Shown here one piece after another: positions 21,901 through 35,596 of a stretch of 64,000 bases of DNA. The translations under genes were made by a program, and so were the position numbers. Below the pieces are notes generated by a model, which was not told the DNA's origin, ran no database searches, and worked only from the letters and a program-made list of their open reading frames with translations. How positions within the stretch are numbered: position 1 is the stretch's first letter; the number at the start of each line of letters is the position of its first letter. The stretch is from Nitrososphaerota archaeon (GTDB lineage: Archaea; Thermoproteota; Nitrososphaeria; Nitrososphaerales; Gagatemarchaeaceae), in the NCBI GenBank assembly GCA_029785615.1, contig JAFLZH010000002.1:1-64000 (forward strand). Direction: 5' to 3'.

Positions 21901-23067
21901 GTTCAGCGCGAAGACCGACTCGGCTGGCGCTGCGACCCCACAGAGGTAGTACGAGACAGGGACGTACATCTCAGACCCTGAAGAGTAGAAGAGGGGCGAG
22001 TCAGCGTGAGCGCCGTATGGGGAGCCGCTGTTCTGCGAATTGCAACCATTGCTGACGAAATTGAAACCGAGGCTCGAGCTTCCAGCGAGCGAGTTACTGG
22101 CGGTGTCGACGAAGTCGACCAAGGGGTTCGAGTAGTACCCGTCTGAATTCGTGACATAGACCTCGCTGTTCGAAGCATCGTATGCAATCCCCGCGGGATC
22201 AAATGAAGATTGAAGCGGAATCTTGGCGACCACCGAGCCATTCACGGTACTGAGGACGATGACGTTGAGGCTGAAGCCGCAGTTGAGAGTGCTCACCGCG
22301 TACAGATACCCGTTCGTGGGGTCAAAGGCAGCGGTCGTAGGGATGCAGCTGCCGTAGACGCTCGAGTTGCCTACGACGAAGGACTTGGCGACGTGGTCGG
22401 TCAGGGTGTCGACAGCTTCTATCACGAGCGTGCTGTTGGGTCCGCCGCCAAGCACGTACAGAGTCCCTGCCTGCCCGAGAGTCGCCGAAAACGGCGAGAA
22501 TCCGCTCTGCATGCCTGTTGACGGCACGTTCCCCGGGAAGAGCGTGTTGTTGGCGAACGACAACGTGTACTCAACGTATCCGGCAGTGCTGTTCGGGGGG
22601 ATGCCCGGAGATGAGGAGCTCTGCTGCGACAGAGTCGTGGCTGGCTCTGGTACAGCGTTAGCGGGCGGGGCGCTGCTGCTATTGTGCGACCAGGCGCCAG
22701 ATAAGACGCCTCCGAGTGTTCCAGCCGTGCTGGAGAAAACCCTCCAGAGCGCACCACCGAGGGACCCGAGCGCTGAGAGGACCCCACTTAGTAGCGAGTT
22801 GCTGCTCTGAAACACCCACCCTAGCCGCGTCGTGGGACCTGAAGCCGAGGCTTCGGGGACGAGCTTGGCCACCAGGACATTTCTTTCCACGTATCCCTGA
22901 CCTGACTGCAGTTGGGAGGCGGGGGCGGAAGAGGGAGGATGTAGGAACCAACTCGACGTGCTCGCGATAGGGACGAACGGGCCGAGCGCCATCAACGCGG
23001 TCACGACGAGTGCGAGGGCCTTCATCCTGCCTGCCGCAGAACGCCGATACATGGGGAGCGGTGTCAA
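12979..23067 (-). CDS. Giant 3362-residue cell-surface protein with beta-propeller and Ig-like domains
   Basis: Seen in order: signal sequence (residues ~12-35); a first set of YVTN-type beta-propeller blades (~165-545; e.g. FDPTNGYLYAVST, YDASNSEVYVTNS); three Ig-like repeats with the archaeal motif TESGLPPGxxW (~550, 626, 829); a second, longer propeller region (~910-1645); carboxypeptidase-regulatory-like beta sandwiches (~1650-2020); DUF11/Ig-like repeats (~2090-2310); a helical segment (~2500-2680); further carboxypeptidase-regulatory, SbsA-like and PKD-like domains (~2710-3100); a proline run (~3149); a Thr/Ser stalk (~3250-3320); and a C-terminal membrane span ending in basic residues (~3324-3352). 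Very rich in NxS/T sequons. Probably an adhesin, S-layer-associated or sensing stalk protein. No protease active site seen. Confidence 0.88.
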   Translation of the reverse strand: MTPLPMYRRSAAGRMKALALVVTALMALGPFVPIASTSSWFLHPPSSAPASQLQSGQGYVERNVLVAKLVPEASASGPTTRLGWVFQSSNSLLSGVLSALGSLGGALWRVFSSTAGTLGGVLSGAWSHNSSSAPPANAVPEPATTLSQQSSSSPGIPPNSTAGYVEYTLSFANNTLFPGNVPSTGMQSGFSPFSATLGQAGTLYVLGGGPNSTLVIEAVDTLTDHVAKSFVVGNSSVYGSCIPTTAAFDPTNGYLYAVSTLNCGFSLNVIVLSTVNGSVVAKIPLQSSFDPAGIAYDASNSEVYVTNSDGYYSNPLVDFVDTASNSLAGSSSLGFNFVSNGCNSQNSGSPYGAHADSPLFYSSGSEMYVPVSYYLCGVAAPAESVFALNDTNAIVGRTPMAYLGDAQQGEVAPSGVVYMEGSGAGFLGSDSNCPCSVPLVTVSPQTNSSSATSISCGSFGESYGMLCLPSGAVYDSATGYLYAGWYYSCYGSGCAQVESNTTAIDSSTNKTAGSLSTGYGRSSILFDQSNGQLYETNGNSGTLSVIFDGRFNATLTESGLPPGDRWGTVIAGALPKYTTSDVITYSAPNGAYRLNVTAGDGYCASPSSRTLVINGSDVSQTIQFTNSGCHTVTFDESGFPAGELWGVTLSGFNSSATAPSTVSFTEPNGNYTYDVMNIGYFGVISYCQSPYGGNVELQGTNVSVPIQYSICGGAGLWTVNVHTNAVFYSDVETVLVNGNVTTSPHVNFTTFATITLTNPFGTVIRSDTVAVNATTGLFQDNFTTGGQGWIGGTYTVTAYWPTGPGCTSSFSECSFSQPIYQFGYLPSGPTYQVTFVEGGLPQGTPWTMTFANATKTSTSSTISYSFPDGYYPYTVRDVGPYVPQLPPRTQMVLVNGSGVTEDIGFTYSEQLLLYNGTVYPGPVLTSYGAYNWQVGQLAYDSADGLLYVLTGNAGNTILGVNVTTKHITQEFTVGGSVDTLTVDPLSGDLFVTNSSVLSNTVKSYYLGETVTVIDPVTGAVVAVVPLLQHPSANEFIGEVQSAGFASSTDTYYALAQITNSSDTYYRQVVYAVSGTNGAVESNFTVPISASSMSVDPVHGTVYLGGLFENSTFRGSSILVLKPSPWTVISNATLNLSGLNSISYDSRNGLAYLAFGYYDFGCSGGGLYSFNASTSVSAKVGSMACAASATFNPANGDLYVSNPVFQSPYENAYGMSVVNPATGTMVANITKLAGEQESPVNTITSVNAANGEVYMASSNSYAVSVVGSSNTVASEILLGATPGTMAYSSDGMVFVADQQTSTLWILNATTGQVEGNVPVPTVSIGGMVYDPTNGYLYVVDSRSSVASVRCTPFPGGGGYTCNSLTYDNVTVFNTRTDAVVTMIPVNTTSGSPFEGVNLISAAYDPVSNRIFVTGTNANEGFVFVIDASTNVLVGNISLGAQPSATGAIAYNPVTGYVYALGGEECISTNYYCQAEGSDRLYAINGSTETVVTNSSVPLSDAMAVDSNTGTIYTVGDGFLSFELAAINATTGSVITVTPLPCSSQSGVDTCGTTAAAYDPENGVVYVAVIAGGSPILAFYDTAAKATGVIYDGGPTDTRSLNGLGTAGQQIVIYDPSADELFTSAWYSSGYPLLGAISMIRPLNVSFVPVSSSSLQVSTLLPNGSPVSGVSISVAGLQFITGSTGTLTFTGLPSGASEPVQACIAGLCTTKTVTLAPGGNTISFEVQPVQASVVDPQGRPVGGVQLTYSGTGGIAGLFTTNSSGLAPSILSPSGATFTVSTNLYGTGLPYETPPAESFTVNGTTPVIVLQPLPTGTLQGVVVYSNGTLVASARVTLSEQVNGLTLTDSTSTNSTGGYSATFYAGFVTASALSPLSNSSSPEYATIPPNGVTTLNFTILLIGTGYINLQLYTQYLGGTLQGPLPVDWRVGAHYGIYAQDPQGYQYRIPYFSSLENTIQVTGYSGEQFTVCVHGYEANLPSECVPVTFDIYRNATAVIKLIQPGVLRGAVIDAATGSPVSSWSASVYSLNATGYASFVTGISNYTSSLYYGVPQLGEYRLDVFSYVGSDELWGQVTVNASASQVYQLGNIALYMGAGDLFTGKAGNTLSVIPGESAPGGTLFLRATYNYTGSFALGNVSMLLPAPAGTTAVAGGFLLGGKPVNASPSSSGYYSVPLGDISSGASGEVRYELQIGDGYNGSSLALLALVNYTVGGKGYEEALATATETVEQVTLSAPLSLSTLNTTVSGQAPPGSALDLYSNDTLLGTTAVPAGGYWGLNVTLPSAGSQTTYQLHAVALTTSGVHVYSPSVSVAYDNTEPQLARICMEQTDGRLMCWDPQDGIPHFPYVFVPGMPMTFTITFSLPSLVDDVSVSVPGVGTVNATLDQDGLYRATMVPYAFGDVYINYNVLRIPKGNGATLPFPTAAQILSGLPPGLIEHANYTVLANTTTSFELLINVPSNMSYVFGGTSLEVSATFTPNELYTLTAGDIRNLTETGYPLYNITSSTRVTPNGTSYNASFFVPYSALPPAMVKELDQPMSTCSNCPTMGGEGVSVGQKVVEEVAPKLLEDGKPLGRAIPFVGAFFSAWGWLDDHQWVELQDVKLQQLTSCASSAPGAFASQSQYFINEANKYSATVSGLGHTAEANDVAGGVLSFVPLAGSEVGMISGGASIAYSVGESQLSAKISAAISNCEKDLHSAPPGSDTANVNPIEDPSGVVYAGLLTNPVANATVTVFQFNSTEGQWVPWGASGYGQLNPQQTDPEGRYAWFVPAGRYMVVVQAPGFSTARSIVVYVPPPATGVDINLLPLSSPEVSGVSAFSNSTGSYIGLSFDQLMRASSLNGSTITVSAPGGQTVSGRVVPVAPQTAPDGDPLTSEVVFVPSSPLTAGTNYTVAVSTTVSNYANMTMPAPHTASVSLAVRSYSLSTNALDVGVGEPVNATAVTNDPLAKYVQFTWISPAGALVSSTTAALLSSESSTSITPNSNGTWVVEASFTDGTNVIKTVSRTFYVVEPAALTGVFATATANSSGSASVDDALINGVSVTVTGLAPGIGLSVNSFDYQTVPPGTPSLAGTATYFDLEVSGASTGTATVCFSGAAVTSSYLLYYYSSSTGQWLLASGIAFSPPDTVCGTIAASELSGTPMAAVLPPATPPPPPPAFSFSVGVTPATVTGQQGSAVTATVSVSLVSGSAQLVTLSSSGLPNGTSVSFSQGSCTPGCSSTLTIDVSAYVSPGSYTVVVTGSGGGYSESAMLTLIVTPATTTTTTTPTMTTTSTATSTATITSTSATTTSNAVSSANATPTSTTTASTTTSQAAQSTSATSSATTFAGLPLSVNYTLALVAIIIVVLVASAILAVARRRGASAYHVNY

Positions 23068-24633: not shown

Positions 24634-24656
24634 TGTAACGGCGGTTACCTTATATC
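24634..24656 (+). promoter_or_regulatory. Palindromic operator next to the TATA box of the universal stress protein gene
   Basis: TGTAACGGCGGTTACC at 24634-24649 (half-sites GTAAC/GTTAC with a 4-base spacer) is followed at once by TTATAT (24650-24655). The same palindrome and arrangement occur at the Ehr operon and the ChrB-like gene. Confidence 0.6.
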
Positions 24657-24669
24657 CCCACGATAGCTG

Positions 24670-25113
24670 ATGCCCGAGCTGACAGGTGGGAGAGCCCTGC
24701 TGAGAAAGCTGCTTTTGGGGTACGACGGGTCGGCCCAGTCGGAACGCGCCCTCGCCCTCGCGGTCGAGATCGCCTCGCAGAACGAGGTCTCGGTGATTCA
24801 CATCGCATATGTGGTTCGGAAGCCGGCCGGAGCCCCAGACCCCGTCCCCGACGAGCTTGTGGAGTCGCTGAAGAGGTCAGCCGCTGAGACCCTGCTGAAC
24901 GCCGAGCGGACGGTGAAGAAGGGCCTGCTCGACGCAGCGTCCCACATAGAAGTCGGGGACCCGGGGGAGAAGCTTCTGGAGCTGGCATCCGCGTTGAAGC
25001 CAGACCTCGTTGTCCTCGGGGCCCTACAGCACTCCGCTTCCGAGAAGCTTGTCGGGACGACGTCTTCGCATTTCCTGAAGTCCAGGCCCTACTCTCTGCT
25101 CATAGTGCCCTGA
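24670..25113 (+). CDS. Universal stress protein (UspA family)
   Basis: 147-residue single-domain Usp. Seen: opening strand KLLLGYDGSAQSERALALAVEIA, VSVIHIAYVV, and the C-terminal nucleotide-binding region DLVVLGALQHSASEKLVGTTSSHFLKSRPYSLLIVP. The usual G-x2-G-x9-G(S/T) ATP motif is altered at its first glycines (GALQHSASEKLVGTTS), so ATP binding is uncertain. The promoter carries the TGTAAC-N4-GTTAC palindrome, so it is probably co-regulated with the convergent Ehr-type operon whose last gene ends 6 bases away. Confidence 0.87.
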   Translation: MPELTGGRALLRKLLLGYDGSAQSERALALAVEIASQNEVSVIHIAYVVRKPAGAPDPVPDELVESLKRSAAETLLNAERTVKKGLLDAASHIEVGDPGEKLLELASALKPDLVVLGALQHSASEKLVGTTSSHFLKSRPYSLLIVP

Positions 25114-25119
25114 TCTCTC

Positions 25120-27171
25120 TCAGCCTGCGGTGAGCAGGATGTAGGTCAGCACAAAGACGAGGGCGGCCATTATGTAGACGATGTAGAGGCCCAGCTTCCC
25201 AGGCATCACCTTCCTGCTCGTATAGGCGGATAGCCCCAAGGCCCACTTGGCGAGGACGTCGTAGAACTTCTTGAACACGTCGAGCACCTCGAGGTCCACC
25301 ACATACTCCTCTGGGGACCTGATGACCGTCCGCTGCACAGGGCCTACCTGGACCACGCTCTCCTTGGTCCTGAAGAGGAACCTCAGCATGACTCTGATCG
25401 GCGTGCTGTAGCCGAAGGAGTTGTACATGGCGGAGGAGTCGTCCGCCAGGGCCGCTCCCGCGAACCATCCGGGGGTCCTCCTGACGCGGAGCCCGAATCG
25501 GGGGGGACGCGCTCGGACGGCACCGGCGACGGCCAGGGTGACCATCAGGATGGAGAGGAACGCCAGGGCTGTGAAGGTGGGGGAGAAGCCGCCGAACGGG
25601 CTGCCTGAGAGGATCACGAACGGGGCGGGGACGCCCAGCAGCCCTGTGACGAACAGCCCATATGGGTTCGCCCCCAGCATCCGCGATGCCGCCTGAGAGG
25701 CGAGGTAGAACACGCCCGGCGCCGCTACGCCGACCGCGACGATGAGCGCTGCGAAGTAGGCGAGGCCCCCCTCGATGTACCCCCCTCCCTTTTCGCCAGG
25801 CGCAGCGATCCTCTTCGGCCAGAGTATTCCGAACCCATAGACTTTGGTCATGGTGACCACCATTATGCCAGCGGCGAGGGCGACCACCGCCCCCACCAAG
25901 GCACCCAAGATCTGGCTGGCCAGATCTCCGAACCTGAACGACTGGAACAGCGCTTCGAGGATCATCCACTCCGAGACGAATCCGGCGAGTGGGGGGACGG
26001 CCGCGAGCGAGAGGGCGGTGAAGATTCCGATGGCGCCTACCCCCCTCACCCCACCCGCGGGGACCGGGTTTGCGCTGGTCAGGTCGAAGGTCCCCCTGAG
26101 CTTGCTCATCCACCCGTTCAACAGGAAGAGGGACGCCTTCGAGACGGAGTGAGAGAAAGCGTGGAAGAGGGCTGCCACCAGGGCGAAGTCAGCCAGGAAG
26201 GTGAGCCTATAGTAGGTGGCGATGAGATACACACCGATGGCCACCACTATCATCCCGTTGTTCTCTATGGTGCTGTACGCGGGCAGGCCCTTCGAGTGCT
26301 CGGAGACCGAGCTGAACAGGGCCCCCAGGAGGGCCGACACCCCCCCGACGGTCAGGGCGAGCCATCCCCACCACAGTTGATACCCTCCCAGGTGCGAGAC
26401 GACGTCGATGATGCCGTAGACCCCCATGAGGGTGAGCGTTGAAGAGAGCAGGGCTGACGCGTTCGAAGGGGCGCTCGAGTGAGCTATCGGGAGCCATTCG
26501 CTCATATGGAACGGGGCCAGCCCCATCTTCAGGCCGAAGCCCAGGAGGGCGGTGACGAAGATCCAAGGACCCAGAGGCGTGACAACCCTGGCGGCGGGGC
26601 CCATGAAGCTGAAGGTGCCTGCGGCGGAGAAGAGTCCGGCAAAGGAGAGCATGATGAGCACGCTGCTCCCTTCCCCGAAGGCCAGGAAGAGGTAAGCCGC
26701 GTTCCTCACCCCCTCCTTGTCCCCCTTCCCTTCGAGGATCATGAAGAAGGAAGCGATGGTCATCGACTCCCAGCCGATCAGGAAGGTGAACGCGTCACCG
26801 CTCACCAGTACGATGACCATCGACAGGATGGTGAGGAGCAGGAGAGAAGAGAGGGAATTAGGATAGTCGTCATCGTACCTCACAGAGTACAGGCAGGTCC
26901 CTAGCCAGACCAGCGAAGAAATCAGGAGGAAATAGGCGTTGAGCGAGGAGACCTGGAGTTGGGCGTGGCTCGTGGAGTTCACCAGCCAGAGGTCGATGGA
27001 GACCGTCCTGCCCGACGTCAGAGCGATAAGCGAGAGCGCCACCCCCAGGGCGGAACCCACGCCCCCCAGCACGTATGCGGCCTTCTTGGCGAACAGCCCT
27101 AGCGCGAAACCCGCACCGAACAGCGCTAGGGTCCCGAAGAGGAGGCCGGAGATCAGGTATGCCGGGATCAT
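25120..27171 (-). CDS. Ehr/Hyf-type complex antiporter-like subunit (NuoL/HyfB-like)
   Basis: 683-residue proton-conducting membrane protein of the NuoL/MrpA/HyfB family and last gene of the six-gene operon. Seen: about 16 membrane spans; the proton-translocation hallmark GWESMTIASFFMI (Glu in span 5); the Lys-containing segment GLKMGLAPFHMSEWLPIAHSSAPSNASALLSS; YSTIENNGMI; and the long C-terminal extension with further spans. The open frame extends to 27249, but the natural start is ATG at 27171, which overlaps the stop of the small subunit gene (ATGA). The preceding in-frame residues are polar and unlike the family. Confidence 0.88.
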   Translation of the reverse strand: MIPAYLISGLLFGTLALFGAGFALGLFAKKAAYVLGGVGSALGVALSLIALTSGRTVSIDLWLVNSTSHAQLQVSSLNAYFLLISSLVWLGTCLYSVRYDDDYPNSLSSLLLLTILSMVIVLVSGDAFTFLIGWESMTIASFFMILEGKGDKEGVRNAAYLFLAFGEGSSVLIMLSFAGLFSAAGTFSFMGPAARVVTPLGPWIFVTALLGFGLKMGLAPFHMSEWLPIAHSSAPSNASALLSSTLTLMGVYGIIDVVSHLGGYQLWWGWLALTVGGVSALLGALFSSVSEHSKGLPAYSTIENNGMIVVAIGVYLIATYYRLTFLADFALVAALFHAFSHSVSKASLFLLNGWMSKLRGTFDLTSANPVPAGGVRGVGAIGIFTALSLAAVPPLAGFVSEWMILEALFQSFRFGDLASQILGALVGAVVALAAGIMVVTMTKVYGFGILWPKRIAAPGEKGGGYIEGGLAYFAALIVAVGVAAPGVFYLASQAASRMLGANPYGLFVTGLLGVPAPFVILSGSPFGGFSPTFTALAFLSILMVTLAVAGAVRARPPRFGLRVRRTPGWFAGAALADDSSAMYNSFGYSTPIRVMLRFLFRTKESVVQVGPVQRTVIRSPEEYVVDLEVLDVFKKFYDVLAKWALGLSAYTSRKVMPGKLGLYIVYIMAALVFVLTYILLTAG

Positions 27172-27911
27172 CGCATCGCCCCCGTCTCCTTCAACCGGCC
27201 GGCGGCCAGTAGCAGCCCCTCCAGAATCTGAACTGGCGAAGGAGGGCAACCGGGGACGACGACGTCCACGGGGATAGCGTCGCCCACGGGGGAGACGAAG
27301 CCTTCCGCGCTCCTGAAGATCCCTCCGCTTATGGCGCAGGCGCCGACGGAGAGAACCAGCTTCGGCTCTGGCATGCTCTCATAGGTCATCTTGAGGGCGT
27401 CCACCATCGCCGGGTTGAGGGCCCCCACGACGATCAGGGCGTCAGCGTGCTTGGGAGAGTTCGTGAAGGCGATACCGAGCCTCGAGAGGTCGTAGTATGG
27501 GTTTGAGAGGTTCAGCACCTCGAGGTTGCAGGCGTTGCACGACCCGACGTCGATCATCATGACGTGGAGCGACCTCCCGAAGATACGTCGGGCTCCCGCG
27601 GCGTGCCTCCCTGTGAGGCCAGCCTGCAGGGCCCCTGCGCGGCTCCCGGACCCGTCATCGAAGGTGAACCCAGCCGAAGAACAGAGACGGCAGTAGACAC
27701 AGCGCCCCAGGTCTACCCTCTTGCCCCCTGAATCAATGGCGCCGGTTGGGCAGCCCCTCTCTCCGGCGGACCAGTCCACGGCGTCGGTGGGCCTCGGCGG
27801 GAGCGAAGCTGTCGGGACCTCCTCTGACGTCGGCTGAGACTTCGGGTACGCCGTGGTGAGTATCCCTTTCTTCAGCCCGCGGAAGACCCAGATCTTTGGC
27901 ATGTCCCACAT
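27168..27911 (-). CDS. Ehr/Hyf-type complex small subunit (NuoB-like) with N-terminal ferredoxin domain
   Basis: 247 residues. The C-terminal part (from ~115) is a NuoB/HycG-like electron-transfer subunit with the proximal [4Fe-4S] ligands intact: CNACNLEVL (C125, C128), GACA (C192) and PGCPPSP (C222). The N-terminal part (~residues 45-85) holds a remnant ferredoxin domain with CPTGAID (C54) and CVYCRLC (C71, C74, C77), enough for one extra cluster. In most complexes this lies in a separate HycF/NuoI-like subunit, and none is found in the operon. Overlaps the next gene by 4 bases and starts 1 base after the large subunit gene ends. Confidence 0.87.
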   Translation of the reverse strand: MWDMPKIWVFRGLKKGILTTAYPKSQPTSEEVPTASLPPRPTDAVDWSAGERGCPTGAIDSGGKRVDLGRCVYCRLCSSAGFTFDDGSGSRAGALQAGLTGRHAAGARRIFGRSLHVMMIDVGSCNACNLEVLNLSNPYYDLSRLGIAFTNSPKHADALIVVGALNPAMVDALKMTYESMPEPKLVLSVGACAISGGIFRSAEGFVSPVGDAIPVDVVVPGCPPSPVQILEGLLLAAGRLKETGAMR

Positions 27912-29267
27912 TCACCTGTCTGAGTCCGCGAACGAGAGGCCGAAGCTTTCGAAGGCGAATTGGAAGTCGGTGAACACCGTGCCTTCAAGGCTCCGTGCGA
28001 ATGGGAGCCAGTTCACCAGGGAAGGTGGCCGAACGTGCAAGCTGCCCACCCTCCCGCCGCCGTCGAGTTGGACCGCCTGTATCAGGTCCCCGCTGGGGCT
28101 TTCGACCCTGCAGAAGGAGAAGCCCGCCCCAAGGCTGTCGGCTCGTCGTCGATGGGGGCCGCTCTTCGTTCCGTCCGAAGGCATCCTGTCCAGCAGCTCC
28201 CTCAGCGCGATTGTGCTGGACTCGACCTCCTTCACTCTCACCATGGTCCTCGCCATGGTGTCCTCTCCATCCTCGGTCTCCAGGTTGACGTAGATGTCTT
28301 CGTAGGGCTCTAGGGGAAAGGTCAGCCTGTCGTCCCACTGCACGCCCGACCCTCGGGCCGAGGGCCCGACCGTTCCGAGGCCGAGGGCGTCCTTCCTCGT
28401 GAGCTTCGCAGTCCCCTGGAGCCTGTCAAGGAATATGCGCGAAGAGAGGAAGTACTGTACGAGCTCGGAAAACTCCCTGCCGATCAGCCTGACCTCCGTC
28501 GTCAAGGTTCTCCGCTCGTCCTTGGGAAGGCCCCGGCTCACCCCACCGATCGAATTGATGCCGAAGAGGTACCTGTGCCCGAAGTGCCTGGAGTTCAATC
28601 TCAGGACCCTCTCCCGAAGCGCGTGTGCCTGGGTAGCCGCAATGTTCTGGGACGCTGCCTCCGCCAGGCGGCCGAAGACGTACAGGTGGTTGTGGATCCT
28701 TTCGAGCTCCAGGGCCACGGCCCTGGTCCACCTTGCCTCCGAGGGGACCTCCAGGCCGAGTGAGTCCTCCACCGCAGCCGCGAAACAGGTCGAGTAAGCC
28801 GCGGAGAAGTTGCCCGCCGACCTCTCGACGAAAAGGAGCGCGTCCTCCGGGGTGCGCCCCAGGACTGCCCGCTCTATGCCGCGCTTCTTGAAATTGAGCC
28901 TGGGGACCACCTTGAGGACCCTCTCGCCGTAGGTCATGAGGCTGAACGCGCCTGCCTCTGGGACGCCCCAGCTGACCGGGCCGTAGGGGAACTCGAACAC
29001 CCCATAGCCCTCGACCCTGCCGCTGGCCTCGAGCACCAGCGGGGACCCTGGCTTCGCGCCGCTGCCTCGGAGCAGCGCGCCGAACTCTTCGCTGAGGGTC
29101 AGGGGGAGCTCGCTGATGATGGTCTTGTTGGTCTCAGTGTCAGAGATCAGCGCGTAGTTGAGGCCTCCGGCCTGGAAGACCGATGAGAGCTGCATCTTCT
29201 CGCCGAGGCGTTCCAAGTTGCGCATCTCTACGCGACCACCGCCCAGGGTTCCCGGCCCGCGGCTCAA
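27912..29267 (-). CDS. Ehr-type large subunit (NuoD/HycE-like) lacking [NiFe] ligands
   Basis: 451 residues from a TTG overlapping the previous stop (437 from the ATG at 29225). The fold belongs to the NuoD/[NiFe]-hydrogenase large subunit family: N-terminal NuoC-like part, then ERAVLGRTPEDALLFVERSAGNFSAAYSTCFAAAVEDSL and LELERIHNHLYVFGRLAE. The hydrogenase L1 motif RxCGxC is here RSAGNF (residues 149-154). The C-terminal L2 motif DPCxxC is replaced by GLSFADS at the very end. So no Cys ligand for Ni or Fe remains and hydrogenase activity is not expected. This matches energy-converting hydrogenase-related (Ehr) complexes or complex I-like modules of unknown electron acceptor. Confidence 0.85.
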   Translation of the reverse strand: MSRGPGTLGGGRVEMRNLERLGEKMQLSSVFQAGGLNYALISDTETNKTIISELPLTLSEEFGALLRGSGAKPGSPLVLEASGRVEGYGVFEFPYGPVSWGVPEAGAFSLMTYGERVLKVVPRLNFKKRGIERAVLGRTPEDALLFVERSAGNFSAAYSTCFAAAVEDSLGLEVPSEARWTRAVALELERIHNHLYVFGRLAEAASQNIAATQAHALRERVLRLNSRHFGHRYLFGINSIGGVSRGLPKDERRTLTTEVRLIGREFSELVQYFLSSRIFLDRLQGTAKLTRKDALGLGTVGPSARGSGVQWDDRLTFPLEPYEDIYVNLETEDGEDTMARTMVRVKEVESSTIALRELLDRMPSDGTKSGPHRRRADSLGAGFSFCRVESPSGDLIQAVQLDGGGRVGSLHVRPPSLVNWLPFARSLEGTVFTDFQFAFESFGLSFADSDR

Positions 29268-30706
29268 GGCACCATCCCCTGGGCCGCCTGTAGGAGCATC
29301 GGGCTCATGTACACGCCAATGACGAGCGCCACGGCCAAGTTGGCCAGCGGGATTGCGACCGAGACCCAGTGTTCATGCTGCGGTGCGGCGCGCGGGGCCG
29401 GCCCGGGGGTCGTCCCATCTGCCTGTTGGCCTGCGCTGCCCTGGCCGAATACCATCCTCACTGACTGCCTGTTCAGGCCGATGAACCCGTAGATGTAGAC
29501 GGCCGCGAGCAGCAGGACGAGCGCGACGTTTCCTGTGCTCAGCGCCATCGTGAGTATCATGAATTCTCCCACGAAGACGCCGAACGGCGGGGCGCCGGTC
29601 ACGGCAAGGCAGGAGAGCGCGAAGAGGTGGCCGCTGTACTTCAGCCTCCACGCCACCCCCTGGACTTCGGCCATGCTCTTGCTTTCGTAGGCGACGAGTA
29701 TGTTGCCTGACTCGTAGAAGGCGGAGGACTTTGCGAAGGCGTGGGCGACTATCTGGACAGCGGCGCCTACAATCCCGATGCCGCCGAGCGCGAAGCCGAC
29801 CAGTATGATGCCCATGTTCTCCATGCTGGAATACGCGAGCATCCTCTTGTAGTTCCGCTGGTGTCCCATTATGATGGCGGCGAGCAGAGCAGTGAATATC
29901 CCGAACCCGATGAGAAGGTTCCGCATGGCCCCGAAGGAGGCCAGCCCCTGCAGCAGGTTGAACGTCCTCACGAGGGCATAGATTGACGTCGGAAGTAGGA
30001 TGCCCGAGAACATGGCGCTGACTGGCGAGGGAGCTTCGCTGTGGGCGTCTGGGAGCCAGGCGTGCATAGGCGCGATGCCTGCCTTGGTCCCGTAGCCAAC
30101 GAGTGCGAAGCCGACGGCAATAGGCATGAGCAGCCCGGCGCGTATGGAGGACCCGGTGAGGTCGGAAATCAAGAGAGTGCCCTGCGAGTAGTAGACGAAG
30201 ACGACGGAGAGTAGCGAAGCTACGAGGCCCGCGGAGACGATGAGGGTGTAGCGCCAGGCCGCTTCTACGCTGGTCCTCTGGCGTTCCAGGGCGACGAGGA
30301 GGGCGCTGGTCACGGTCGTTGCCTCAATCGCAATCCACACGAGGCCGAGGTCGTTCACCGTGACGGCCAGGAGCATGGTGAAGGCGAAGAGGTCGAGCAG
30401 GGAGTAGTACCATCTGAAGCGTATGAGCGGCTCGTTGATCCGTCTCACGTAGAACCAAGAATAAGCCACGGAAGTGAAGAACACTGAGGAGATGGTAATC
30501 GCCATTATCCGCGTGAGGCCGTCTGAATAGAACAGGCCGAACGCCCCCGATGCGCCGGAGGCTAGCAGGAACAGAGAGACGAGGACGGCCGCGGCCGAAG
30601 AGGCCAGGGATGCGGCGACCTCCACCCCGTCCCTGGGCACAAGAGAGATGGCCGCCCCGGCGGCCGGGGCAGCCAGCAGCGCGACAAAGATCAGGCTCTG
30701 GTCCAT
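29264..30706 (-). CDS. Ehr/Hyf-type antiporter-like subunit (NuoN/HyfF/MrpD-like)
   Basis: 480-residue proton-conducting subunit with about 14 membrane spans. Seen: WIAIEATTVTSALLVALERQ (key Glu of span 5), GYGTKAGIAPMHAWLPDAHSEAPSPVSAMFSG (conserved Lys and the family signature), YSSMENMGII and AHAFAKSSAFYESGNI. It is the second proton channel of the complex beside the NuoL-like subunit. Third gene of the operon; its stop overlaps the start of the large subunit gene, and it begins 6 bases after the HyfE-like gene. Confidence 0.88.
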   Translation of the reverse strand: MDQSLIFVALLAAPAAGAAISLVPRDGVEVAASLASSAAAVLVSLFLLASGASGAFGLFYSDGLTRIMAITISSVFFTSVAYSWFYVRRINEPLIRFRWYYSLLDLFAFTMLLAVTVNDLGLVWIAIEATTVTSALLVALERQRTSVEAAWRYTLIVSAGLVASLLSVVFVYYSQGTLLISDLTGSSIRAGLLMPIAVGFALVGYGTKAGIAPMHAWLPDAHSEAPSPVSAMFSGILLPTSIYALVRTFNLLQGLASFGAMRNLLIGFGIFTALLAAIIMGHQRNYKRMLAYSSMENMGIILVGFALGGIGIVGAAVQIVAHAFAKSSAFYESGNILVAYESKSMAEVQGVAWRLKYSGHLFALSCLAVTGAPPFGVFVGEFMILTMALSTGNVALVLLLAAVYIYGFIGLNRQSVRMVFGQGSAGQQADGTTPGPAPRAAPQHEHWVSVAIPLANLAVALVIGVYMSPMLLQAAQGMVP

Positions 30707-30712
30707 TCGATA

Positions 30713-31372
30713 TCACCCGGTGAGTTGCTCCAACTCGGGCTCTTCAAGCGACTTCAGGACGTCACGGGTGGCGGACAGGATCACCCCCACCAGGATGACC
30801 CCCAGAACGTCCAGAACCACCGCGAACTCGATCAGCAGGGGCATCGACGGGGCGATGAGGGCCCCCGCATAGAGCACGGCGTTCTCCTCCTCCAGAAACC
30901 CGGTCATCTGGGTGAGGGCGTTCCGTCGGGTGGCTATGAGGAGGAGGCTGAGGAGCACCAGGACGAAGGGGACCGAGGCGGACGGGTTGGAAAGGGTAGG
31001 CAGCAGCGCCGTCTTGAACAGGGCGTATCCTCCGATCACCACGATGACCCCTGCTATCACCAGCGAAGGCACCCTCTGGCCGGGTCCGCTCTCCCTCAGG
31101 CTGTGCCTGAAGCGGCGCACCTGGTACAACATCACCCTGGGGATGAGGAGCCCGCGTATCCCTGCGGTTATCGCTGCCAGGTAGAGGAGGTTCACGTCCC
31201 CCGACCCCAGGAAGAGAACCACGAAGAGGAGGGCTAGGAGCAGCGACTGGACGGCCACGCCCCGTATCGTGGGGTCCACGAAGGTCTGGCTCTGCAGGTA
31301 GAGGGCCGTCAGGAGCACCAGTATCCCCAGGAGCCCGGAGAGCTCGCCGAGGAGAAGCTGAGGGAGGATCAT
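30713..31372 (-). CDS. HyfE-like membrane subunit of the Ehr-type complex
   Basis: 219 residues with six to seven membrane spans; resembles hydrogenase-4 component E (HyfE), which combines NuoK/MrpC-like features. Seen: LLLALLFVVLFLGSGDVNLLYLAAITAGIRGLLIPRVMLYQVRR and a C-terminal segment MTGFLEEENAVLYAGALIAPSMPLLIEFAVVLDVLGVILVGVIL with the conserved EEENA-x4-G and E-F-x-V-x-L-D motifs. Second gene of the operon; it overlaps the NuoH-like gene by 4 bases. Contributes to the proton path or links antiporter subunits to the core. Confidence 0.85.
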   Translation of the reverse strand: MILPQLLLGELSGLLGILVLLTALYLQSQTFVDPTIRGVAVQSLLLALLFVVLFLGSGDVNLLYLAAITAGIRGLLIPRVMLYQVRRFRHSLRESGPGQRVPSLVIAGVIVVIGGYALFKTALLPTLSNPSASVPFVLVLLSLLLIATRRNALTQMTGFLEEENAVLYAGALIAPSMPLLIEFAVVLDVLGVILVGVILSATRDVLKSLEEPELEQLTG

Positions 31373-32340
31373 GACAGCGGCCCCCCTCCGACCAGGAAGA
31401 ACGCGATGACCGCGAGGAGCCCGAGGCTGAACGAGATGGCGAGGAAGTCGAGAATCTTAAAGAGGCGGAGCTTCGCGAAAGTCTCTTCTGTTATCACGAT
31501 CACGACTGCTAGGCCAAGAAGTTTGAGGACCAGCGTCCCGACGGAATACAGCGCCCCCTGGACTGAGACAGCGCTGGACATCCACCACGGGAGGAGGAAG
31601 ACGTTGAGGAACACCGACATGAGCATGAACTGCTTCATGTAGCCGCCCCACGTGGACATCGCCAGGAGCCTTCCTGAGTGCTCCATCACTTTGGCGTCAT
31701 CGAGCATCCCCAGCTCCATCAGGCCGGAGCTCTCCACCGGCAGGCGACCGGTCTCCACCAGCAGGAGCATGAAGAAGGATGACAGGACGAGGATGTGGGT
31801 GGCCGAGAGGTACCAGGCTGTCGAGGCGGCCAGGAGGTTGTTGGTCACGTAGGGGTTGTTGGTCCCGGTGATTAGCGCGACCCCGAAGAAGACCATGATC
31901 AGCGTCGGCTCGGCCAGGGCGGAGAAGGAGGCGCTCCTGCTCGCCCCGAGGGCAGTGTAGTTCGTGTGGGCGTCTATCGCCGCGACTATCCCTACCACCC
32001 CGGCCAGGCCGAACATCAGGGCCCCGCCCAGCAGGTCGAGGAGGATGCCGTAGGGGAGAGGGTACGGAGTCACGACGGGTATGACCAGCGAGATCACGAC
32101 GTACGCTGTGAACGAGAGGAACGGTGCCAGCATGAAGAAGGCCGAAGCCCTTTCGGGAATGACAGTCTCTTTCTTGAACAGCTTGGCAAGGTCATAGTAA
32201 GGCTGGAGGACGGGAGGCCCTCGCTTGGACTCCAGGATCGCCTTCAGCCGGTTGATGACCCCGGCTATGAGCGGCGAGAGGGCAAGGACCGTCCCCACCT
32301 GGATGGCGTTTATGGCCTGAAGTGTGAGCTGGTCTGGCAA
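31369..32340 (-). CDS. Ehr/Hyf-type complex membrane anchor subunit (NuoH/HyfC-like)
   Basis: 323 residues, eight membrane spans, first gene of the operon. NuoH/HyfC-type subunits couple the soluble arm to the ion-pumping arm. Seen: AGVINRLKAILESKRGPPVLQPYYDLAKLFKKE, the family hallmark near the N-terminus; LVETGRLPVESSGLMELGMLDDAKVMEHSGRLLA, the conserved acidic loop; and VITEETFAKLRLFKILDFLAISF at the end. The ATG start gives a standard N-terminus. The promoter with its palindrome lies 150-180 bases upstream, leaving a long leader of about 130 bases with no clear gene. Confidence 0.9.
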   Translation of the reverse strand: MPDQLTLQAINAIQVGTVLALSPLIAGVINRLKAILESKRGPPVLQPYYDLAKLFKKETVIPERASAFFMLAPFLSFTAYVVISLVIPVVTPYPLPYGILLDLLGGALMFGLAGVVGIVAAIDAHTNYTALGASRSASFSALAEPTLIMVFFGVALITGTNNPYVTNNLLAASTAWYLSATHILVLSSFFMLLLVETGRLPVESSGLMELGMLDDAKVMEHSGRLLAMSTWGGYMKQFMLMSVFLNVFLLPWWMSSAVSVQGALYSVGTLVLKLLGLAVVIVITEETFAKLRLFKILDFLAISFSLGLLAVIAFFLVGGGPLS

Positions 32341-32491: not shown

Positions 32492-32520
32492 CTTGGTAAT
32501 TAAATGTAACTGTTGTTACA
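32492..32520 (-). promoter_or_regulatory. Ehr operon promoter with perfect palindromic operator
   Basis: TGTAACTGTTGTTACA at 32505-32520 is a perfect palindrome with a 4-base spacer. Read on the minus strand it is directly followed by the TATA-like TTTAATTA (about 32493-32504). The next gene downstream is the NuoH-like gene at 32340. Confidence 0.65.
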
Positions 32521-32532
32521 TCAAGGTTTTGG

Positions 32533-33078
32533 CTATCTGTTGAGTCTCCGAGGCTGCGCCTTCTCGGCGAAGCCTGCCAGCGCCTTCATGCACCTGGATA
32601 GTATCTCCTCCACTTTGGAGGAGTCCTCGCCTCGCCCGTACCCCTTCTCTCGCACGCTCTTGTACCACTTTTCGAGAGACTCTAGAATCTGCTCGAGCTC
32701 GTCGGTCTCCTCATAGGTGATTTTCTTGCTTGCCAGGTTCTCGCTTATCTCGTCTAGGAACTCCTGGCACTCTTCATAGATCTCTTCGAACTGCTTCCGC
32801 CTGTCATCCTGGAACATTCTGGAGAGCACGTCCGAATCCCGGGCGTCCAGGGCGCCGGCGTTCATCGCCAGGACGGTCCCGTGCTTCCTGAATTCCGACA
32901 TGAACTGGCCGATTTCTTTTCTTGCCTGCGGCGTGTTGGGGAGGATGCAGAGGGACACCGGCGGATAGAGGGCGCCGAGCTTCTTGAGGTTCCTCCAGGC
33001 CCTGACTCGGAGCTTTGAGGGCTCGTTCGGCAGGTCGTAGGCCACCACAATCCACTTGTCGGCGGGCTGCCTGCTCAC
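32533..33078 (-). CDS. ChrB-like (ChrB N-terminal domain) putative transcriptional regulator
   Basis: 181 residues resembling the N-terminal domain of ChrB, a DNA-binding regulator distantly like PaaX. Seen: WIVVAYDLPNEPSKLRVRAWRNLKKLGALYPPVSLCILPNTPQARKEIGQF, matching the family pattern of LPxxPSxxRVxxWRxLKxLGA followed by a strand and a Pro-Asn/Asp-x-P turn, then a long helical C-terminus (ERRKQFEEIYEECQEFLDE-like). The chromate-associated C-terminal domain of ChrB is absent. Its own promoter has the TGTAAC-N4-GTTACA palindrome against the TATA box, as do the Ehr operon and the Usp gene. I infer that it binds this site and regulates itself and those units. Confidence 0.75.
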   Translation of the reverse strand: MSRQPADKWIVVAYDLPNEPSKLRVRAWRNLKKLGALYPPVSLCILPNTPQARKEIGQFMSEFRKHGTVLAMNAGALDARDSDVLSRMFQDDRRKQFEEIYEECQEFLDEISENLASKKITYEETDELEQILESLEKWYKSVREKGYGRGEDSSKVEEILSRCMKALAGFAEKAQPRRLNR

Positions 33079-33140
33079 TGGCGGAAACCTCCACCCAGGC
33101 GATTCAAGCAGGTCATGGCCGGAACTCGCATGGAGAGTCA

Positions 33141-33171
33141 GCTATATATTCCTCTTGTAACTGCTGTTACA
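33141..33171. promoter_or_regulatory. Divergent promoter with palindromic operator (ChrB-like gene / 33182 gene)
   Basis: The palindrome TGTAACTGCTGTTACA at 33156-33171 lies next to CTATATATT (33142-33150). For the leftward ChrB-like gene the palindrome is just upstream of the TATA box. The near-symmetric TATATA could also drive the rightward TTG gene at 33182, and then the palindrome would sit between TATA box and start. Confidence 0.65.
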
Positions 33172-33181
33172 GCGGTCGATT

Positions 33182-33499
33182 TTGCGTCACAAGGGAAGGG
33201 GGAAGGCGGCGGCCGAAGTTGTGGAGTTCTCCGTGGACAGGGAGGACTACGAAGGCTTCGAGCGCCTCTCAGATTCCCGCCATCTCGATAGGGAGGACGC
33301 GCTGAAGGTCGTCCTTACCGAGGGCATCGGCAGGTACTGGCCCCTGCAGCTCGCCTACATGGAGAAGGACTACGCCGAGCTGAAAGAGAGCTTCAAAGAA
33401 TACAGCAGAGACAACGAGATTCTGAGGAAGATATACGCGCAGAACAACGGGCTTAGGAAGCTGCTGGAGCCCGCGAAGTCTGCGGGGAGGGGCGGGTAG
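33182..33499 (+). CDS. Unknown protein, RHH-like start plus coiled coil (tandem paralogue 1)
   Basis: No family recognised. 105 residues from TTG. The N-terminal half (VEFSVDREDYEGFERLSDSRHLDREDALKVVLTEGIGRY) has the strand-helix-helix look of ribbon-helix-helix proteins. The second half (LAYMEKDYAELKESFKEYSRDNEILRKIYAQNNGLRKLLE) is helical and probably coiled-coil. The next gene has the same two-part layout and shared positions (…K…E…Y…DN…L…I/M…N…LRKL), so they are tandem paralogues. Divergent from the ChrB-like regulator and sharing its operator, it is probably part of the same control circuit. Confidence 0.65.
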   Translation: MRHKGRGKAAAEVVEFSVDREDYEGFERLSDSRHLDREDALKVVLTEGIGRYWPLQLAYMEKDYAELKESFKEYSRDNEILRKIYAQNNGLRKLLEPAKSAGRGG

Positions 33500-33988
33500 G
33501 TGTTCCATCTGTTCGGCACCGCCGGAGAGAGGCGGCGTGGCGAGGAGGTCGACGTTCACTCGATCCTCGAGGCGCGCGTCACGGGTGAGTCGGTCAAGAT
33601 CACAGCGAGGTTCGAGGGGAGGACATGGCAACAGATAACCGACTTCGCCAGGCGGATGGGATACACCGACATGAAGGAGCTGATTCCGATACTCTTCTCG
33701 TATGGAGTCTCGGAGAAGGAGGGCGCCGACGTCGAGAGACGCCGCCTGGAACTGTACTCACTGGGTAGCAAGTATGCAGCAATGAAGTTCGAGGCGTACC
33801 AGCTATTCAATGACAACCGGGCGCTATCTATGGCCCTCTCTACGATGCTGCCAGAGAATAGGAGGCTCAGGAAGCTTGCTGCCGAGAGAAGCCTCGGCCC
33901 ATATAGACAAGAATCGTGGGACGACTGGTCGCAGGAAGACATCGACAGGTTCCACAAGAAGTACGTCTACAGCCTGAAAGGGACCTAG
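33500..33988 (+). CDS. Unknown protein, RHH-like start plus coiled coil (tandem paralogue 2)
   Basis: No family recognised. 162 residues from GTG, directly abutting the stop of the previous gene, so co-transcribed. An RHH-like segment (VKITARFEGRTWQQITDFARRMGYTDMKELIPILFSYGVSE, residues ~32-73) is followed by a helical segment (LYSLGSKYAAMKFEAYQLFNDNRALSMALSTMLPENRRLRKLAAE) and an acidic/aromatic tail (DDWSQEDIDRFHKKYVYS). The layout repeats that of the preceding protein with an added N-terminus and tail. A heteromeric DNA-binding pair is possible (inference). Confidence 0.62.
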   Translation: MFHLFGTAGERRRGEEVDVHSILEARVTGESVKITARFEGRTWQQITDFARRMGYTDMKELIPILFSYGVSEKEGADVERRRLELYSLGSKYAAMKFEAYQLFNDNRALSMALSTMLPENRRLRKLAAERSLGPYRQESWDDWSQEDIDRFHKKYVYSLKGT

Positions 33989-34925: not shown

Positions 34926-34954
34926 TTATCTGATATGCTATGATTTCTTATGAT

Positions 34955-35323
34955 ATGGCCCAGATACTAGTCAGGGTGGATGAAGATCTCGCAAAGGAGG
35001 TGAGAAGGATAGTCAAAGAGAAGTACGGAGGGAGGAGAGGGGCCCTGAGTTTCGTGGTGGAGGAGGCGCTGCGGGAAGTCGTCTCGCCTCCTGCTGAAAT
35101 CTCGGCGTCATCCCTTCTCGAGGTGATCGATTACGTCTCCAGGGCTTCGAAGGAAGGGCAGCCGAAGGACCAGATACTTACGAATGTCTTCTTGATGCTG
35201 GACAGAGAGTTCGAGCAGAGCATCATAGCCGGGGTGGAAGACGTCGACAAGGGGAGGATTCGCGAGGTGCCGAAGGGGCACGACGCTGTCGAGTTCCTGA
35301 GAGAGCTCGCAAAGCAGGCGTGA
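34955..35323 (+). CDS. RHH-type antitoxin of a RelE/ParE-like module
   Basis: 122 residues from ATG 34955. Seen: N-terminal ribbon-helix-helix (AQILVRVDEDLAKEVRRIVKEKYGGRRGALSFVVEEALREVV) followed by a helical toxin-binding tail rich in D/E and K. An ATG at 34940 is also in frame, but a TATA-like GTTTATC at about 34924-34930 lies ~27 bases ahead of 34955, favouring the latter as a leaderless start. The toxin gene follows after 3 bases. The dimer is expected to repress its own promoter. Confidence 0.75.
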   Translation: MAQILVRVDEDLAKEVRRIVKEKYGGRRGALSFVVEEALREVVSPPAEISASSLLEVIDYVSRASKEGQPKDQILTNVFLMLDREFEQSIIAGVEDVDKGRIREVPKGHDAVEFLRELAKQA

Positions 35324-35326
35324 GCC

Positions 35327-35596
35327 GTGCTGAGACGCGTGAGGTACACGGACGAGTTCGTCAGAAGACACCGCGAACTCACTCCGTCCCAGCGAGGGCT
35401 GGTCGAAGAAGCCGTCAGGCTGATCCTGTCTGCCGACGACCCGACGCTGCTGGCTCACCACATGGAGCGGAAGGCGTACTTCTGCAATTGGAGCCACCGG
35501 GTTAGGGGTAACCTACTGGTGGTGTTTGGAATGTCGCAGAGGGAGGTGACGTTCCTATCGACAGGCACCCACTCCCAGGCCTACCGCCCCAGATAG
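35327..35596 (+). CDS. RelE/ParE-superfamily toxin (YafQ-like)
   Basis: 89 residues from GTG, 3 bases after the antitoxin stop. Seen: RRVRYTDEFVRRHRELTPSQRGLVEEAVRLILSADDP, the helical hairpin of RelE-fold toxins; HMERKAYFCNWSHRVRGNLLVVFGM, with the conserved W-S-H-R-V-x-G-x-L beta core; and EVTFLSTGTHSQAY, the final strand with G-T-H-x-x-A/V-Y. RelE-family members cleave mRNA at the ribosome; ParE members target gyrase. The His-x-x-Y-type ending favours an RNase. Confidence 0.78.
   Translation: MLRRVRYTDEFVRRHRELTPSQRGLVEEAVRLILSADDPTLLAHHMERKAYFCNWSHRVRGNLLVVFGMSQREVTFLSTGTHSQAYRPR

Follow-up and report, generated by a model that had tools for sequence, protein, structure and literature searches.

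A short ChrB protein encoded in the genome of a Nitrososphaerota archaeon is, judging from comparisons between genomes, almost certainly the regulator of the palindrome TGTAAC-N4-GTTACA. Taken as a whole, our preferred reading, in which this protein is an autoregulated repressor of a fluoride-stress regulon, seems reasonably probable. The gene lies in a stretch of DNA of 64,000 nucleotides, hereafter the window. Its product (32533-33078) would be a DNA-binding regulator consisting solely of the ChrB_N domain, and would bind the palindrome beside the TATA box in archaea or inside the promoter in bacteria. It would repress its own gene and the genes of the ion-pumping complex Ehr, an RHH-like protein pair and, in part, a universal stress protein (Usp); in relatives the regulon may include crcB-DUF190, a MutS-type gene pair, phosphoesterases, an MFS transporter and others. 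The repression would be lifted when fluoride rises, this being sensed directly or by way of consequences such as metal-fluoride complexes or acidification. Comparison shows that gene and site travel together, that the site lies at promoters and that the putative target set overlaps known fluoride genes; it also shows that in relatives the fluoride riboswitch and the palindrome replace each other at the same operons. DNA binding, repression and the fluoride signal we infer.

According to sections of a 2024 review, only about 15% of Fluc and about 30% of CLC-F exporters are under riboswitches, and other mechanisms exist (PMC11139923). A ChrB-type protein whose operator is defined offers a specific candidate for fluoride control and could be put to use as part of a biosensor. 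The regulon would also offer a possible role for the orphan ion-pumping complex Ehr within an archaeal stress response, and the regulator-operator pair would be one kept across two domains of life. That the short ChrB itself senses fluoride, or a metal-fluoride complex, and acts on a single operator in archaea and bacteria is a tentative proposition, possible rather than probable; it would then be the protein equivalent of the fluoride riboswitch and might account for some of the fluoride regulation outside riboswitches. In kind, the circuit is a variant of ChrB regulation in which the known sensing half is absent and the regulon is a different one. No description of it was found in those parts of the literature that were searched on ChrB with fluoride, chromate, archaea, palindromes and PaaX/Cas2.

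Genes and palindromes of the locus

The genes and promoter elements of the locus are listed in Table 1. The name Ehr (energy-converting hydrogenase related) was taken over from an earlier note on this DNA. Nickel-binding CxxC motifs are absent from the hydrogenase-like large subunit (window 27915-29267) and from its counterpart in the relative G063. Elsewhere in the window, a single minus-strand ORF of 3362 amino acids (12979-23067) has repeated YVTN/NHL-like stretches and looks like a large secreted or surface protein, and two small plus-strand ORFs (34940-35596) read like an antitoxin-toxin pair (RHH-like, RelE/ParE-like).

Table 1. Genes and putative promoter elements of the locus (window positions) and DUF6062 proteins of related loci
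Feature	Position	Strand	Remarks
Palindromic operator, one mismatch, Usp promoter	24634-24649		TATA box TTATAT follows directly
Usp, universal stress protein (PF00582)	24670-25113	+	Pfam E 9e-18
Ehr operon, antiporter-like subunit (PF00361)	25120-27249	-	
Ehr operon, NuoB-like small subunit (PF01058)	27168-27911	-	
Ehr operon, NuoD/hydrogenase-like large subunit	27912-29267	-	no CxxC motif
Ehr operon, second antiporter-like subunit (PF00361)	29264-30706	-	
Ehr operon, small membrane subunit	30713-31372	-	no Pfam match; same place in related loci
Ehr operon, first gene, NuoH-like subunit (PF00146)	31369-32340	-	
TATA box of Ehr promoter, TTTAATTA	32497-32504	-	adjoins operator directly
Palindromic operator, exact, Ehr promoter, TGTAACTGTTGTTACA	32505-32520		TATA box adjoins
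Short ChrB regulator, ChrB_N domain only	32533-33078	-	181 aa
TATA-like box ATATATA between operator and ChrB gene	33143-33149		ATATATAG, 7 nt past operator toward ChrB
Palindromic operator, exact, between ChrB gene and RHH-like pair, TGTAACTGCTGTTACA	33156-33171		
RHH-like protein a (RHHa)	33182-33499	+	RHH_1 E 0.014, below cut-off
RHH-like protein b (RHHb)	33500-33988	+	no Pfam match
DUF6062 proteins	L065 2443-3351 and 5282-6025; L183 10769-11554; L066 4853-5608		

The earlier note had placed the palindrome at the promoters of Usp, Ehr and ChrB, each time beside a TATA box. Positions and mismatches were reproduced, and so was the neighbouring box, which adjoins directly toward Ehr and Usp and lies 7 nt off toward ChrB. 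This last box could also serve the RHH-like gene in the opposite direction. The site at 33156-33171, ending 10 nt ahead of that divergent gene, can thus act in either direction. Tolerating two mismatches at most, we found four matches in the window; 100 shuffles of it gave a mean of 0.47 and at most two. The whole assembly of the source genome (1,394,177 bases in 32 contigs, 90.9% complete) holds two exact sites, both inside the window, and two with one mismatch. Three of these four are the sites at the three promoters, and the fourth (C13:3499, one mismatch), within an ORF, looks like chance. The palindrome thus occurs well beyond chance expectation, with two exact copies in 1.39 Mb and no match to the reversed pattern in the whole assembly.

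Co-occurrence of gene and palindrome in archaea

Among 61 related genomes, 24 contain the exact palindrome and 13 a ChrB-like protein, and the two co-occur. The palindrome is found in all 13 genomes with the gene and in 11 of the 48 without it (p=3.8e-7); within the genus the figures are 11 of 11 and 1 of 20 (p=1.4e-7), both p values being nominal because the genomes share ancestry. The sole exception in the genus is a 60% complete assembly (G006), whose site matches the one ahead of the dynamin-like gene in its relatives. The 13 genomes with the gene have 43 exact sites and no match to the reversed pattern; the 48 others have 14 exact sites and all five reversed-pattern matches.

In the class, ChrB_N was found in 17 of 300 genomes. 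Of 11 loci outside the genus, six have an exact site no farther than 1.5 kb from ChrB_N, or within a shorter range where contigs end, and nine have one with at most one mismatch. Only a two-mismatch site is near a ChrB_N fragment in G075, and G287, which departs from the pattern, has ChrB_N and no palindrome, its crcB keeping the riboswitch match. A set of nine genomes with ChrB_N contains 11 exact matches against four of the reversed pattern, so that some of the sites there are due to chance. In G015, ChrB is left only as pieces (L059 16936-17284, G015:C4); the stretch still has four exact and two one-mismatch palindromes, and crcB with a riboswitch match is on another contig. A search for ChrB on viral contigs gave 31 pattern matches, none of which was confirmed.

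That the palindromes are a chance or structural repeat without any regulator has next to no probability. Such a repeat would account for the exact matches in genomes lacking the gene, which outnumber the reversed-pattern matches of all 61 genomes; it would not account for the 43-to-nil ratio in genomes with the gene, for the adjacency to TATA boxes or, most strongly, for the conservation across domains at a distance from the gene that, in bacteria, mostly falls in one narrow range. A chance origin was rejected on the basis of the shuffles, the reversed pattern, the gene co-occurrence and the random-place control in bacteria described below.

Position at promoters and putative targets

Site position was compared for 44 distinct exact sites on 34 archaeal stretches, all picked for ChrB or the palindrome, some of the sites being near-identical orthologues. 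Thirty-seven of the 44 have a TATA-like box no more than 14 nt from an edge, versus 105 of 2167 control places (4.8%) 60-400 nt away. Among the 39 boxes found, 21 begin right at the edge of the palindrome and nine begin 7 nt off.

The place directly beside a TATA-like box is also used by some archaeal activators. The 21 directly adjoining boxes would suit a short ChrB that activates, recruiting TBP/TFB while bound beside BRE/TATA, an alternative that cuts across the main reading and whose likelihood is counted apart. We regard it as rather improbable: the site stands at the short ChrB's own promoter, it fills the promoter spacer in two bacterial loci, and the ChrB of O. tritici represses. Repression by the short ChrB we take to be probable.

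Autoregulation and control of Ehr, both put forward in the earlier note, are consistent with the site at the gene's own promoter and, in each of the 11 Ehr loci examined, with an exact copy no more than about 205 nt ahead of the operon's first gene. In G229 a site precedes a ferredoxin-like gene 1.5 kb ahead of Ehr. For Usp the case for shared control is weaker; the window has its one-mismatch copy, but the site is poorly kept: within 200 nt upstream, at most one mismatch was seen in three of ten Usp loci, two mismatches in two and a worse match in five. The RHHa gene has an exact palindrome upstream in 11 of 16 loci, one with a single mismatch in two, and none within 250 nt in three.

The putative regulon is larger than the earlier note proposed and points to fluoride. 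Within 200 nt upstream the palindrome is also found at crcB-DUF190 in ChrB-bearing G257 and G280, and at a HAD-type gene in ChrB-bearing G277, whose apparent operon ends in crcB-DUF190. Further genes with such a site encode, in G015, the MutS-type pair and a dynamin-like GTPase, and in the same genome a one-mismatch site precedes a DUF4129-MoxR-DUF58 operon. G002 and G063 have the site before a calcineurin-like phosphoesterase gene, G002 also before the gene of an MFS transporter (as does G044, with one mismatch), and G060 before that of a DUF6062 protein. No palindrome was found within 200 nt upstream of the MutS pair of G063 or of the enolase genes of G015 and G004, though all of these lie within such clusters. 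Enolase was considered as a direct target and rejected; the nearest palindrome is about 370 nt upstream and its TATA box faces the opposite way, and for this reason direct control is not claimed.

The two proteins of the MutS-type tandem pair, of about 510 aa each, have MutS domain V as sole clear domain (L187 9623-12668; L059 2266-5348) and are tied to the ChrB/fluoride cluster. DUF6062 proteins, candidate stress proteins, recur in three archaeal lineages as neighbours of ChrB, following the palindrome or lying near it.

Could the RHH-like pair bind the palindrome, with ChrB as a passenger or co-factor? The distance of 10 nt between palindrome and RHHa recurs identically in six other loci, and all 11 ChrB-bearing genomes of the genus also have RHHb. 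We nevertheless judge this very improbable. RHHb was searched in 39 genomes with profile A3 (E <= 0.001), in which the G063 and G023 rows are partly included. Outside the genus the search covered 11 genomes with ChrB_N, and 10 of them gave no match; G044, G060, G071, G257, G277 and G280 all lack a match to it and all have ChrB and exact palindromes. It was found in G023 and G034, both without a ChrB match, and G023 has no exact palindrome anywhere. In bacteria the site precedes ChrB, with no RHH pair noted among the annotations there. By this search the pair was rejected as main binder, and its part as co-regulator of the site, suggested in the earlier note, was not borne out.

The short ChrB protein

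The window protein matches ChrB_N (PF20229) with 99.6 bits, the curated cut-off being 23, and a scan of 30 short ChrBs (10 archaeal, 20 of 23 bacterial) found this domain in every one. PF20803 PaaX_M, the Cas2-like middle domain of PaaX, is also matched by 21 of the 30 (E <= 0.01). The remaining Pfam matches are weak and concern one or two members each, and no second domain recurs; the short ChrBs differ from PaaX regulators in that no PaaX winged-helix domain is among these matches. Likeness to PaaX and Cas2-like regulators extends to an AlphaFold2 model (alignment of 5 rows, mean pLDDT 62.6), in which a b-a-b-b-a-b strand order gives a low-confidence hint of a Cas2-like fold. A sequence search of solved structures with the short ChrB gave no credible match (best E 0.11).

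Arginines R24 and R29 of the window protein align with R25/R30 and R29/R34 of two long ChrBs, with a spacing of 5 in all, and the long ChrB of Cupriavidus CH34 has the pair R27/R32. R29 is invariant in the 30 short ChrBs and R24 is kept in at least 90%. By way of the two long ChrBs aligned, this pair would be equivalent to R18/R23 of O. tritici ChrB. In the sections available to us of the study of that protein (PMC3817168), it binds its own promoter and represses, the R18A and R23A exchanges derepress, and the response to chromate depends on R180, R187 and H229 of the C-terminal half. A different inverted repeat was proposed there, mutation of which did not abolish binding. In vitro the protein was not freed from DNA by chromate, so that simple release does not fit.

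In the alignment the long ChrBs continue past the end of the 181-aa window protein, and the short form is without the half that holds the chromate residues. Since the arginine pair is kept and the sensing half absent, ChrB-like DNA binding by the short form is likely, while chromate sensing through the known residues would not be possible. With the ChrB of O. tritici and Cupriavidus the short form thus shares ChrB_N and its arginine pair and, as predicted, regulation of its own promoter. It differs in the missing C-terminal half, in the sequence of its operator, which is also unlike the O. tritici repeat as described in those sections, and in the rarity of chromate transporters in archaea that carry it. 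ChrA (PF02417) was not found in the source genome; it was found in two of 22 archaeal genomes with ChrB, on contigs other than that of ChrB. With the search negative in 20 of the 22, chromate was rejected as the signal.

Fluoride riboswitch and palindrome at the same operons

The fluoride riboswitch was searched with RF01734 (gathering score 34). Matches precede crcB-DUF190 in six genomes (G015, G019, G022, G023, G024, G287), those of G015 and G019 being just below gathering. In the ChrB-bearing genomes G257 and G280 the palindrome, not the riboswitch, precedes crcB-DUF190, and RF01734 was not detected in either; in G277 the palindrome does so via the apparent operon, and a weak RF01734 match lies on another contig.

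The RHH-like pair shows the same exchange. A match of 42.3 bits precedes the pair in G063, 6 kb from ChrB, and matches below gathering precede it in G023 (two, of 26.3 and 28.2 bits) and G007 (24.3 bits, with the conserved core visible in the alignment). Two of the three RHHa loci without palindrome (G007, G063) have a riboswitch match there instead. RHHa homologues stand behind fluoride-riboswitch matches in L054, L190 and L191 and, by weak homology, in L187. The G063 pair is the best of 85 ORFs yet weak (E 1e-4 and 0.014 with a profile lacking its own row), so that its position carries part of the argument there; riboswitch, RHH-like pair, phosphoesterase, MutS pair, ChrB and Ehr lie in one 14-kb stretch with three palindromes. 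Since the pair stands behind riboswitch matches in G023, G007 and, with weaker homology, G063, it looks like a target of the regulon.

Neither CrcB nor a fluoride riboswitch was detected in the source genome, and therefore its fluoride link rests on the relatives, all 61 of which the CrcB search covered. The source genome has one CLC gene, on a contig without palindrome. In G034, a genome without ChrB match, the RHH-like pair is divergent from a CLC channel gene (L247 4308-7384), and an RF01734 match of 28.5 bits, below gathering, lies about 6.5 kb away; this is a candidate CLC-F locus.

Known fluoride genes, as listed in the sections available to us of three articles (PMC11139923, PMC8004769, PMC5533749), comprise exporters, enolase, pyrophosphatase, formate hydrogenlyase, haloacid-dehalogenase-type phosphatases, Na/H antiporters and DNA repair, and UspA is among the fluoride genes of the FRM island. 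Ehr presumably corresponds to the formate-hydrogenlyase annotation in these lists. The circuit proposed here shares crcB-DUF190 and the RHH-like pair as target operons with the RF01734 regulon, whose targets, in the published portions consulted, include enolase, pyrophosphatase, formate hydrogenlyase and DNA repair. The two differ in that an RNA in the leader acts there, whereas a protein and a promoter DNA operator are predicted here. The fluoride island FRM of Enterobacter cloacae has eno, uspA and Mn-pyrophosphatase together, as does the Pantoea locus L200 below; as far as its published account was available, it is described with a riboswitch, and its gene table has no ChrB.

The short ChrB might also control these genes in response to another signal, such as chromate or another oxyanion, phosphate imbalance, or acid or metal stress, in which case the fluoride genes would belong to a broader group of stress genes. 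In favour of this, chromate sensing gave the family its name, 3.5 kb separate one short ChrB (L236) from chrA, the genes next to bacterial short ChrB often encode cation transporters, PAP2 phosphatases or MFS proteins instead of CrcB, and a role in general stress is conceivable for the dynamin-like, MoxR-DUF58 and MutS-type genes. Weighed against the absent chromate residues, the rare and unlinked ChrA of archaea and the exchange of palindrome and riboswitch before crcB and the RHH-like pair, this alternative appears unlikely, though it is to be taken seriously. Fluoride or a direct consequence of it is probably the physiological signal of the short ChrB.

The same protein and site in bacteria

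A tblastn search with the window protein gave 109 plasmid records, and one with a second archaeal ChrB 98. From the bacterial short-ChrB plasmid loci, 23 were examined, chosen for taxonomic spread. The archaeal site recurs upstream of these genes: within 80 nt it is exact in seven loci, has one mismatch in 12, two in three, and is missing in one, so that 19 of 23 have it with at most one mismatch, a match reached by 0.6% of random places in the same loci. It mostly lies 25-46 nt before the gene, a distance of 25-30 nt from the start codon being common. On two Agrobacterium plasmids the space between TTGACT/TTGACA and a -10-like box, promoter elements that were read by eye, is taken up by the site.

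The bacterial loci were read over 3 kb a side in four cases and up to 6 kb in the rest. Within these stretches short ChrB is near crcB, CLC, eno or Mn-pyrophosphatase in five of 23 loci, and RF01734 exceeds the gathering score in four: in the Pantoea locus L200 with eno-usp-pyrophosphatase, on two Agrobacterium plasmids with CLC-crcB, and in a Mesorhizobium locus with crcB. A Cereibacter locus has crcB twice and DUF190 and no RF01734 match. The other 18 show no annotated fluoride gene within the stretch read; among them, L240 and L241 carry no annotation and L236 has chrA. Cation transporters, PAP2 phosphatases and an MFS transporter are frequent neighbours, the latter being homologous to the archaeal ones in five of six compared (about 30% identity).

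No site with up to two mismatches was found at three loci of long, chromate-type ChrB. Upstream of the long ChrB of Cupriavidus CH34 (pMOL28, L212), at a distance of 54 nt, there is a perfect palindrome, TGTAGA-GATC-TCTACA, of the same 6-4-6 form as the short-ChrB site and with other letters, which is a possible operator of the chromate regulator.
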